49,505 nt of DNA, from NCBI RefSeq assembly GCF_002159915.1, contig NZ_NFJP01000028.1, forward strand, positions 1 to 49,505. Reading direction: 5' to 3'. Of the stretch, positions 7,907 to 10,911 are shown one piece after another (positions within the stretch are counted from its first letter, which is position 1; each line of letters begins with the position of its first letter). The DNA comes from Gordonibacter sp. An230 (GTDB lineage Bacteria > Actinomycetota > Coriobacteriia > Coriobacteriales > Eggerthellaceae). Under the pieces are notes generated by a model, which was given only the letters and a program-made list of their open reading frames with translations, was not told where the DNA came from and made no database searches. Position numbers and translations under genes: made by a program.

Positions 7907-8284
7907 CCGTCGGCCCTCGGAAGGTCCGCGCCACCGCGCCATGGACCATGAAGGGCGGCCGAATGGCCGCATGTCGACCCCAACCGTTCGCAACGCCTTT
8001 CCATAGGCCCTCGACCCCGACATTTTAGAGCCTCTCGTCTTGCGCCGTCGAGAGGCCGCGCAAGGACGTCGTCATGCGACCCGTCCTCCTCGTCGACCCG
8101 CTTTCGGTCTTCGGGAAGCCAGTTGATGCGGCGGCGGCCTCCCGATTCGGAGCCCCGAGTAGCGCAAACGCCGATTCGACGCGCAAGCAGACGCAGGCCC
8201 AGACCTTGACAACGAACGTTCGTTTGTCTATTATAGGCGAACATATATTCTTACGAACATTTGATCTTGGGAACGGACGTGCGC
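7907..8284. other. 378-bp intergenic region before the radical SAM gene
   Basis: No coding sequence. It contains a perfect 8-bp hairpin (8030-8037 with 8049-8056), perhaps terminating the upstream gene, and the strong promoter with operator-like repeats at 8206-8266, described separately. Confidence 0.6.
8206..8266 (+). promoter_or_regulatory. Near-consensus promoter with SOS-like operator boxes
   Basis: TTGACA (8206-8211), a 17-base spacer and TATTAT (8229-8234) form a textbook vegetative promoter. The spacer contains a perfect 14-bp palindrome AACGAACGTTCGTT (8211-8224). Downstream lie GAACATATATTC (8239-8250) and GAACATTTGATC (8255-8266), each one base off the GAAC-N4-GTTC LexA box of Gram-positive bacteria. 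Boxes overlapping and following the start site would repress a gene. The promoter drives a predicted DNA-repair pair, so damage induction is a reasonable inference. Confidence 0.6.
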
Positions 8285-9814
8285 ATGGAGCTGCTCGACA
8301 AGCTGGAGATCCTCGCCGATGCGGCGAAGTACGACGTAGCATGCACCTCATCGGGAATCGACCGTGCAGCGCAGAAGGGCAAGCTGGGCAACACGCTTGC
8401 CGCCGGCTGCTGCCATAGCTTCTCGGCCGACGGGCGCTGCATCACACTGCTCAAGGTGCTCATGACGAACGTGTGCGTATACGATTGCGCCTACTGCGTG
8501 AACCGCGTCTCGAACGAGGTGCCTCGCGCGGCATTCACGCCCCGCGAACTGGCAGAGCTTACCATCGCGTTCTACCGACGCAACTACATCGAAGGGCTGT
8601 TCTTGAGCTCCGGGGTCATCCGCGACCCCGATCACACCACCGAGCTTATGGTGCGCACGCTCTCCCTTCTACGCAACGAGCACGGCTTTCGCGGGTACAT
8701 CCACGCGAAGGCCGTCCCTGGCACCTCTCCCGAGCTTATCGAGACGCTCGGGCATCTCGCAGACCGCCTGAGCGTGAACATGGAACTGCCTTCCCAAAGA
8801 AGCCTCGCCCTGCTTGCCCCCGAAAAGGACAAGCAGCGCATCGTCGCGCCCATGCGCCAGATACGAGACGGCATTGCCGAAGACCGCGAAACGCGCACCG
8901 CCATGCGCCGCGGAACCACCTATTTAGCGCAGAGGCGCCCCGTGCGCAAGGAGCGGGCCTTCGTGCCCGCCGGTCAGTCTACCCAGATGATCGTGGGAGC
9001 CACGCCCGAGAGCGACTTCCAGATACTCAACCTCTCGGCCGCGCTCTACCGCACGCTCTCGCTCAAGCGCGTGTTCTTCAGCGCCTACACGCCCGTGAAC
9101 GACGACGCGCGCCTGCCCGGCGCCGACGCCGTCCAGCTCGCCCGCGAGCACCGGCTCTACCAGGCGGACTGGCTTCTGCGCTTCTACCGCTTCGACGTCA
9201 CCGAGATCATCGACGAGGAGCACCCGTTTCTGGACCCCGAGGTGGACCCGAAGGCGAACTGGGCGCTCAACAACCTGGACTTCTTCCCCGTGGAGGTGAA
9301 CAAGGCGCCGCTCGAGGCGCTCTTGCGCGTGCCCGGCATCGGCGTGAAGGGGGCGCACGCCATCATGCGCGCCCGGCGCTCCACCACGCTCGGCGAGCGC
9401 GAGCTGCGCAAGCTGGGCATCGCCTACAAGCGGGCGCGCTTCTTCGTCACCTGCAACGGCAGCTACGCCGGCCAGGGGGCGGACTTCTCGCGCGAGGGGC
9501 TGCGCGCGCACCTGGCCGCCACGCCGAAGGGCGGCAACCACGGCCGCCGCGCGGACAAGGTCATCCCCGGCCAGCTGAGCCTGTTCGAGAGCGTGGAGAC
9601 GCCCGAGAAGGCCCGCATCGCCCCGGGCGCGGGAACCGACGGCGGAGAGCAACTGGGTATGAGGGCCGGGGGACGCCTGGGGGTCGGGGGGCGCCTGGGG
9701 GCCGGGCCCGCCGGACGACAAGACAGCGCGGCAAGTGGGCGGCATGTCGGAGGCGTCGACGGCGCGTTCGGCTGGCAGCACGCCCTCGAGCGCCCCGAGG
9801 CGGCGTGCGCATGA
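8285..9814 (+). CDS. Putative DNA modification/repair radical SAM protein (TIGR03916 type)
   Basis: A 509-residue radical SAM protein. Cys64, Cys68 and Cys71 in VCVYDCAYCVN are the CxxxCxxC ligands of the 4Fe-4S/SAM cluster. The N-terminal LADAAKYDVACTSSG opening and a helix-hairpin-helix near residues 343-362 (LLRVPGIGVKGAHAI) are hallmarks of the family linked to uracil-DNA-glycosylase-like proteins. The helix-hairpin-helix implies DNA contact. The C-terminal ~70 residues are Gly/Ala/Arg-rich and probably disordered. The start is the ATG at 8285, with no strong ribosome binding site; a TTG at 8261 is possible. It overlaps the next gene by ATGA, so the two are translated together. Biochemical function is not established for the family. 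Confidence 0.85.
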   Translation: MELLDKLEILADAAKYDVACTSSGIDRAAQKGKLGNTLAAGCCHSFSADGRCITLLKVLMTNVCVYDCAYCVNRVSNEVPRAAFTPRELAELTIAFYRRNYIEGLFLSSGVIRDPDHTTELMVRTLSLLRNEHGFRGYIHAKAVPGTSPELIETLGHLADRLSVNMELPSQRSLALLAPEKDKQRIVAPMRQIRDGIAEDRETRTAMRRGTTYLAQRRPVRKERAFVPAGQSTQMIVGATPESDFQILNLSAALYRTLSLKRVFFSAYTPVNDDARLPGADAVQLAREHRLYQADWLLRFYRFDVTEIIDEEHPFLDPEVDPKANWALNNLDFFPVEVNKAPLEALLRVPGIGVKGAHAIMRARRSTTLGERELRKLGIAYKRARFFVTCNGSYAGQGADFSREGLRAHLAATPKGGNHGRRADKVIPGQLSLFESVETPEKARIAPGAGTDGGEQLGMRAGGRLGVGGRLGAGPAGRQDSAASGRHVGGVDGAFGWQHALERPEAACA

Positions 9815-10911
9815 GCGCCGCCTACGGAACCGACAGCGAACGGCCTTCGGACGCTGCGGCGTCCGAGGCTGGCTCCGGCCGCGCGGCCGCCCCGGACAAG
9901 GAGGCGGATGGCCGCGCGACTGCTCCGGCTGCGAGGGGGGTGGAGCGGGAATCCGCCGCAGCCGGAGACGTCCCCTACGGACCGGCTACGCCGGAAGAGC
10001 CGCTCGCTGACGTGGCCTACGCCTACGACGGGACGCTGGAGGGCCTGCTCTCGGCGGTGTTCGAGGCGTACGACCGCCGGGAGGACCCGCAGGATGTCAC
10101 GGCCCAGGCCGCACTCCAGCCGCGCCTCGGGCAGACGGTGCGCTTCGTGGAGACGGACGTGGAGCGCGCCGTGCGCGTCCAGCGCGGCATCAAACGCGTC
10201 TGCGGCCACGCCGCCTACGACGCCGTCATGCGCGCCTCGCTCTCCGACGAGCCGAACGCCGGCACCGTCGTCTACCGCTTCGTGCGCTACGCCATGGCGG
10301 CCAAGCGCCCGCACGACTGCACGGGGTGCCGTCGGCGCGGCTCGTGCAGCGGGCCCATAGCCCCTTCGCGGCCCACCGACTCCCTCGGCTGCTCGGGCAA
10401 GGCGCGCGGCAGCGTGCTGAACGACCTGGCCCATCCTGCGGTGGAGCCCCTGCACCGCCTCGTGCGCTCCGTGGGCAACGAGCGCCACCACATGGTGCAG
10501 TTCCTGCGCTTCGAGCACCTGGAGAACGGCGTATGGCTCGCCCGATGCAACCCCAAGGCCTCGGTGGTGCCGCTGATCATGGACTGGTTCGCCGACCGTT
10601 TCAACACGCAGCCCTTCATCATCTACGACGAGGTGCACCGCCTGGCGGGCGTCTACGAGGGGCGCGACTGGTACCTCGTGCGCACCGACGGGCTGGACGT
10701 GCCCGACCGCGCCGCGGAGGAGGGCCTCATGCAGGCCGCCTGGAAGCGCTTCTACCGCACCGTCGCCGTGGAGGCCCGCTACAACCCGGAGCTCCGCCGC
10801 CAGTTCATGCCCAAGCGCCTGTGGAAGAACATCCTGGAGATGCACGAGGACCTCCCCGGCACCGAGCTCGCCCGTGCCGCCTCGCGAACCGAGCGCCTCT
10901 GGCGCGGCTGA
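9811..10911 (+). CDS. TIGR03915/DUF4130 DNA metabolism protein, partner of the radical SAM gene
   Basis: A 366-residue protein whose ATG overlaps the radical SAM stop codon. Residues 1-~70 are Ala/Glu/Gly-rich low complexity. A conserved core starts at YAYDGTLEGLLSAVFEAYDRRE and ends with the FIIYDEVHRLAGVYEG region and RLWKNILEMHE, as in DUF4130 proteins, which in other genomes are fused to or located beside UDG-family domains. An insertion around residues 168-200 has four cysteines (CTGCRRRGSC and one after TDSLG), which could bind a metal. There is no UDG domain here. Role: probably DNA damage processing together with the radical SAM enzyme. Confidence 0.8.
   Translation: MSAAYGTDSERPSDAAASEAGSGRAAAPDKEADGRATAPAARGVERESAAAGDVPYGPATPEEPLADVAYAYDGTLEGLLSAVFEAYDRREDPQDVTAQAALQPRLGQTVRFVETDVERAVRVQRGIKRVCGHAAYDAVMRASLSDEPNAGTVVYRFVRYAMAAKRPHDCTGCRRRGSCSGPIAPSRPTDSLGCSGKARGSVLNDLAHPAVEPLHRLVRSVGNERHHMVQFLRFEHLENGVWLARCNPKASVVPLIMDWFADRFNTQPFIIYDEVHRLAGVYEGRDWYLVRTDGLDVPDRAAEEGLMQAAWKRFYRTVAVEARYNPELRRQFMPKRLWKNILEMHEDLPGTELARAASRTERLWRG

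Follow-up and report, generated by a model that had tools for sequence, protein, structure and literature searches.

Do the radical S-adenosylmethionine (SAM) protein of Gordonibacter sp. An230 and its DUF4130 partner belong to the SOS response, and what would such control say about their role? The two genes form an operon on a stretch of 49,505 nucleotides (from contig NZ_NFJP01000028.1), the whole of which is referred to here as the window. The initial annotation described them as a helix-hairpin-helix radical SAM gene and a linked DUF4130 gene, a system proposed for DNA repair that has never been assigned a reaction, behind an almost perfect promoter with SOS-like boxes. Our analysis indicates that SOS control of the operon is nearly certain and that a DNA repair role of the pair is very likely, and the locus is best explained, with comparably high confidence, as a damage-inducible, LexA-controlled repair operon of two genes (Table 1).

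The promoter proved to be exactly as first described, and it is the single exact match to TTGACA-N17-TATWAT in the window, where three matches with up to two mismatches were found versus 0.37 expected from shuffles. LexA sites were searched with a symmetric profile of 16 bases derived from the lexA upstream regions of 31 Coriobacteriia, the genome of the window included. Its input consisted of sites deviating from GAAC-N4-GTTC in no more than one position (78 sites, 38 of them distinct), none of which came from radical SAM promoters; one lexA upstream region (L096), with 34 bases available, was too short to yield a site, and L018 was not in the lexA search. The three highest-scoring places in the entire window all fall in this promoter, followed by scores of 9.2 (overlapping the third) and 7.2, so that a profile built on lexA alone supports the SOS reading. 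Two of these three contain the near-LexA boxes that had been noticed downstream of the promoter, GAAC-ATAT-ATTC (8239-8250) and GAAC-ATTT-GATC (8255-8266), and they take the top ranks; the transcription start relative to which they are placed was inferred from the -10 element.

Table 1. Features of the operon and its promoter in the window (positions count from the first letter of the window; a dot marks features without strand)
Feature	Position	Strand	Remarks
Promoter TTGACA-N17-TATTAT	8206..8234	+	TTGACA 8206-8211, TATTAT 8229-8234
14-bp palindrome AACGAACGTTCGTT	8211..8224	.	perfect over 14 bp; judged incidental
Predicted LexA operator 1, ACGAACGTTCGTTTGT (GAAC-N4-GTTT)	8212..8227	.	in -35/-10 spacer; score 14.2 with the lexA-derived profile
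Predicted LexA operator 2, GCGAACATATATTCTT	8237..8252	.	over the inferred transcription start; profile score 17.1
Predicted LexA operator 3, ACGAACATTTGATCTT	8253..8268	.	abuts operator 2, 16-bp spacing; profile score 17.3
Radical SAM protein, TIGR03916, 509 aa	8285..9814	+	ATG at 8285, the start position used in relatives
QLSLF clamp-binding-type pentapeptide	9572..9586	+	residues 430-434 of the radical SAM protein, near the C-terminus
DUF4130/TIGR03915 partner, 366 aa	9811..10911	+	ATG overlaps the stop codon of the radical SAM gene
Four-cysteine insert in the DUF4130 protein	10306..10395	+	residues 166-195; seen only in Coriobacteriia

The same motif precedes established SOS genes of this genome (3.88 Mb), which has a clear lexA (L001) and a clear recA (L081). 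The upstream region of lexA holds GAACCTTTGTTC and GAACAAAAGTTC, recA has ACAAACATACGTTCGT between TTGACT and TATAAT (profile score 18.8), and one Y-family polymerase gene carries ACGAACAAACGTTTTG directly after TATACT. The window promoter thus matches the genome's own LexA motif, and the SOS reading survived a comparison in which a different consensus at these genes would have spoken against it. On the opposite strand upstream of lexA, a promoter TTGACA-tgaacttttgttcgttc-TATTAT followed by GCGAACAAAGGTTC has the same layout as that of the window; its LexA boxes (L001 1080-1240) are placed as in the window, and a divergent short yneA-like gene there is a guess. Further strong LexA-type sites were seen at two other loci of the genome (L080 1500-1515, score 17.2; L077 1681-1696, score 15.4). 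No profile site of at least 11 was present in the stretches scanned around the locus of the other S24-type protein (L002).

The sites recur in front of the operon in relatives. Across 34 related Coriobacteriia upstream regions of up to 250 bp, scanned at a threshold score of 11, a LexA-type site was present in 32, and 55 sites fell into these 8,304 bp compared with 6 in the remaining 326,818 bp of the same loci. The 16-bp spacing of operators 2 and 3 is found again in, e.g., L003, L006, L007, L015, L019 and L020, and promoters of a loosely defined TTGA type can be recognised in 23 of 35 upstream regions from Coriobacteriia (this and the following two counts include the window). A spacer element of the type GAAC/AAAC-N4-(G/A)TT(T/C) was recognised in 17/35 promoters, versus 4/35 for the palindrome core CGAACGTTCG, for which reason the functional spacer site is most simply the LexA-spaced one, offset from the palindrome. 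The 14-bp palindrome pointed out in the initial annotation is therefore real, but it looks incidental, and the operator is better read as ACGAACGTTCGTTTGT than as a GAACGTTC palindrome. The boxes might instead bind another regulator, e.g. a TetR-type repressor on the palindrome, with a likeness to LexA sites that is only partial; the perfect symmetry over 14 bp would fit, and repressors of this type commonly have symmetric sites that overlap. Nevertheless, the rarity of the palindrome core relative to the LexA-spaced element, the lack of a regulator among the two flanking genes scanned, and LexA-type sites of other classes before the operon in Proteobacteria make this explanation very improbable.

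LexA control of the operon also extends, by the same kind of prediction, to other phyla. For Firmicutes, 22 distinct sites upstream of lexA were used to build a profile of their own (24 of 27 upstream regions gave a site and three had none good enough), and with it a site was found upstream of the radical SAM gene in 28 of 36 loci, with 42 sites in 9,000 bp upstream versus 19 in 328,755 bp elsewhere; this count omits L072, whose gene start is missing, and five Coriobacteriia numbered among these loci, which entered the Coriobacteriia count instead. Thirty of the 36 loci come from genomes that were searched for lexA. Among the 25 with a lexA above the cut-off the box occurs in 22, two of them (L048, L054) barely over threshold, and among the five without it occurs in two, L060, whose genome has a lexA fragment, and L063, which comes from a metagenome assembly; L041, L042 and L061 have no box. 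A draw of 296 genomes from across the phylum gave 35 with a TIGR03916 match, 27 of them over the cut-off; the Coriobacteriia profile was then applied to 30 loci from this draw, with a score of 10 as the threshold. All 12 loci of the window's family or order have a site within 250 bp (the window and near-copies of earlier loci included), and of the 18 loci outside the order L200 and L201 have one, while L202 starts inside the gene and cannot be judged. From plasmid records with 158 relatives, 16 were examined (11 alphaproteobacterial, 2 Caballeronia, 3 Bacteroidota). Both Caballeronia loci carry CTGT-N8-ACAG, the LexA box of Beta- and Gammaproteobacteria, starting 29 bases upstream. In each of the 11 alphaproteobacterial loci GAAC-N7-GAAC is found no more than 200 bp upstream, with one such place elsewhere in these loci on either strand, and the direct repeat GTTC-N7-GTTC is given as the alphaproteobacterial LexA motif in PMC8565304. 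Four kinds of LexA-type motif, differing by group, hence precede the operon: GAAC-N4-GTTC, GAAC-N4-GTTT, GAAC-N7-GAAC and CTGT-N8-ACAG. Since LexA-type sites are kept in front of it although the LexA motif itself differs between the groups examined, a role in the damage response is hard to doubt.

Several observations weigh against this reading. Two Coriobacteriia loci (L021, L024) have no upstream site at threshold 11 and eight of the 36 Firmicutes loci none at theirs; among the latter, lexA-bearing but below threshold, L031 has GTAC-N4-GTTC and L058 GAAC-N4-GTTC, and L044 has neither. Outside the order, 15 of 17 judgeable loci of the same phylum lack a site, where the Coriobacteriia profile may not fit their LexA, and in all three Bacteroidota loci the 200 bp examined contain neither CTAA-N5-TTAG nor GGA-N5-TCC, the two motifs that have been described for this phylum. 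In the genome of the window itself, no site of at least 11 was present in the stretch scanned at two (L142, L143) of its three Y-family polymerase loci, and the strict palindrome CGAACNNNNGTTCG is not enriched, with 7 places versus 10 for the reversed pattern. The strict form is therefore no guide to the regulon, and the profile was used in its place; three of the seven strict loci (L075, L076, L078) have no profile site of at least 11 in the stretch scanned. Moreover, the relatives are not independent samples, and as the site counts treat related sequences as separate they should not be taken as probabilities.

SOS control of such operons has been described before in other phyla. We take COG4277 to be the same family as TIGR03916. 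For the COG1573-COG4277 base-excision operon, SOS regulation was predicted in Bacteroidetes, and the same paper cites reports of SOS operons in Verrucomicrobia and Alphaproteobacteria (PMC8565304). These operons, which pair a uracil DNA glycosylase (UDG) with its partner, resemble that of the window in the SOS control of presumably the same radical SAM family, as the direct repeats at the alphaproteobacterial loci illustrate, but the UdgX domain to which TIGR03915 is joined in Leisingera and Paracoccus is missing from the window partner, and the window operon has three predicted LexA sites of the Gram-positive type. LexA control was also predicted for CAC3343-CAC3344 of Clostridium acetobutylicum (PMC3828012), which belongs to another phylum than the window and is likened to it by description, not by alignment. 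A LexA-controlled radical SAM protein is listed for Streptomyces (PMC9380542). Our literature search found no paper naming TIGR03915 or TIGR03916 and one naming DUF4130, nothing on the SOS response of this group in the titles and abstract beginnings returned for Eggerthella and LexA, and no reaction for the pair, in line with the initial annotation. Its expectation that apparent SOS control would directly support a repair role holds insofar as the SOS reading is supported; the novelty of this support is only partial, since earlier papers already describe SOS control of this kind of operon in other phyla (PMC8565304, PMC3828012).

What the products might do can be approached from their domains, and the described gene pair was borne out by family matches. 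The first protein reaches 601.7 bits with TIGR03916 (cut-off 343.5), the second 218.3 bits with TIGR03915 (cut-off 112.25) and 139.5 with the DUF4130 family PF13566 (cut-off 27), and the genes share 4 bases (ATGA). For the first protein, Pfam at E 0.001 gives the radical SAM domain alone; evidence for the helix-hairpin-helix comes from a profile match to 2duy, a ComEA-related protein (E 1.9e-4), and from a VPGIG motif from residue 349, whose PGxG pattern is present in 76 of 79 proteins. The CX3CX2C triad occupies residues 64-71, with C64, C68 and C71 in all 48 aligned rows, and three further cysteines, C20, C43 and C52, are equally invariant (48/48). A pattern covering these extra cysteines, written after the sequences had been seen, fits 79/79 proteins of Coriobacteriia, Firmicutes, Proteobacteria and Bacteroidota, and the more distant same-phylum homologue L200 is without part of it. 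From this conservation we infer that C20, C43 and C52 may carry a second iron-sulphur cluster. The best matches of the gene come mostly from Gordonibacter, in keeping with a gut bacterium of the Eggerthellaceae. In Gordonibacter pamelaeae 7-10-1-b (L007 4998-7604) the radical SAM frame extends beyond the start of the partner to a length of 868 residues, an apparent frameshift or sequencing error. In search listings the radical SAM gene also appears among the annotations of one large Acinetobacter plasmid record and of Acinetobacter phage records of 240 kb, and on that account it occurs on large mobile elements. The genes flanking the window operon, for an ABC_trans_CmpB protein and for a DUF362 protein with ferredoxin motifs, look unrelated to it.

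The structural model of the radical SAM protein (mean predicted local distance difference test, pLDDT, 82.9) has its closest core neighbours, among the matches listed, in lipoyl synthase, HydE and biotin synthase (Z about 16 to 18, root-mean-square deviation (rmsd) about 3, about 220 aligned residues). As these are biosynthetic radical SAM enzymes and the NCBIfam name reads 'DNA modification/repair', the pair might modify DNA or mature another repair protein and be merely co-induced with the SOS genes. LexA-type sites of four kinds before the operon in different groups, and a hairpin and clamp-type peptide that point to DNA at replication forks, argue otherwise, and we consider such a function rather unlikely.

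The clamp-type peptide lies at the end of the conserved part of the radical SAM protein, where a relaxed motif was found in 65 and the strict one in 52 of 77 proteins, with 0.1 expected from shuffled tails, and the strict motif is absent from the first 385 residues of the same proteins. Several of the misses are near variants (QLRLF, QPRLF, QASLF, QLSLI, QLALI), and the frame-shifted L007 was scored as a miss. The Bacteroidota proteins L220 and L221 end in QLLLDF and QLILPF in place of QLSLF; these resemble hexapeptide clamp motifs. The usual clamp-binding pentapeptide is QL[S/D]LF, and that of PolC is QLSLF (PMC12309361), the very form found in the window. The tail is suggested to be accessible, and only suggested, because the modelled residues there have a pLDDT below 50. 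Docking of the radical SAM protein to the sliding clamp through QLSLF seems probable on these grounds, and no paper linking a clamp-type motif to radical SAM was found among the matches listed.

These features also bear on whether the pair is a specialised dimer repair enzyme of the spore photoproduct lyase (SPL) kind, truly linked to the SOS response but acting apart from the replisome. A published prediction casts DUF4130 as an enzyme related to mutagenesis and associates it with SplB-like radical SAM photolyases and uracil DNA glycosylases (PMC3765255), and SplB is reported as SOS-regulated in several species (PMC8565304). The radical SAM triad and the DNA-binding hairpin are compatible with this, and like SplB the window protein would be a radical SAM enzyme acting on DNA. 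By description, it is set apart from SplB by its extra cysteines, hairpin and clamp-type peptide, of which the three invariant cysteines and the peptide are not known as features of SPL; its best structural neighbours among the matches listed are those named above, although the absence of SPL there excludes nothing. An SPL-like enzyme of this sort therefore appears unlikely, if somewhat less so than mere co-induction.

The DUF4130 partner is harder to place. In both alphaproteobacterial proteins scanned (Leisingera, Paracoccus), TIGR03915 is fused to a UdgX domain (TIGR03914), and it stands alone in Spirosoma and in the window, whose partner yielded no TIGR03914 domain and whose operon is not of the UdgX-linked type. 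UdgX excises uracil and covalently binds the resulting abasic site (PMC10359453), and a term search of the main text of that paper gave no occurrence of operon, DUF, SOS or damage. Elsewhere in the genome of the window TIGR03914 has one match, on a different contig and at 122.1 bits, below the cut-off of 189.95, and the locus of this weak UDG match has no LexA-type site of at least 11. The four-cysteine insert of the partner occurs in 16/26 Coriobacteriia rows and 0/25 other rows of alignment A1, and its region gave a weak Pfam match to the NADH-G iron-sulphur region in 4 of 51 members (E 0.024 in the window, 0.0043 at best), so it is perhaps a metal or iron-sulphur loop.

The model of the DUF4130 protein (pLDDT 87.9) weakly resembles the DHH folds of RecJ and Cdc45. 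In a second-look structural alignment the best match had a Z of 8.2, in the uncertain range of the tool, with an rmsd of 5.3 over 192 aligned residues, and 39 of the 50 rows listed were titled RecJ, RecJ-Cdc45, Cdc45, DhhP, NanoRNase, family II pyrophosphatase, GdpP and the like. We take all 39 to be DHH-fold proteins, and the other 11 are replisome/CMG entries whose matched chain is presumably Cdc45. Foldseek returned two matches under E 0.001, both to a single PAP phosphatase entry (best E 8.2e-4, TM-score near 0.25-0.26, rmsd above 13), and unrelated proteins follow among its weaker rows. Profile comparison gave no sign of homology to DHH proteins: the hhalign probability was 0.1 against RecJ (16 rows), GdpP (9) and NrnA (3), the same as for an unrelated radical SAM control. 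No DHH family is among the 16 Pfam families listed at E up to 10 over 51 DUF4130 members, and in the 51-row alignment no D-H-H run occurs among positions conserved in at least 60%. The weak resemblance of the predicted fold to RecJ and Cdc45 thus has no counterpart in profiles or conserved motifs, and we retain it as a lead.

By analogy with established SOS biology, LexA dimers in the undamaged cell would occupy the three 16-bp operators in the spacer, over the start site and in the leader and block transcription, and after damage activated RecA would promote the self-cleavage of LexA, whereupon the two overlapping genes would be translated together. The helix-hairpin-helix might then bring the radical SAM protein to DNA and the C-terminal peptide to the replication machinery, where a SAM-derived radical could reverse or trim a replication-blocking base lesion, while the DUF4130 protein, UdgX-fused in the Proteobacteria examined, might handle or present the DNA strand. 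In its most specific form, a replisome-coupled radical repair distinct from SPL, induced through LexA, tethered to the clamp by QLSLF, with a second cluster at C20/C43/C52 and a catalytically silent RecJ/Cdc45-like partner holding the damaged single strand, this proposal is tentative.

SOS control tells when these genes act, not which lesion they act on. The extra cysteines and the clamp-type peptide offer a way further, as the cluster content of the radical SAM protein and its binding to the clamp would narrow the possible chemistry and the place of action.

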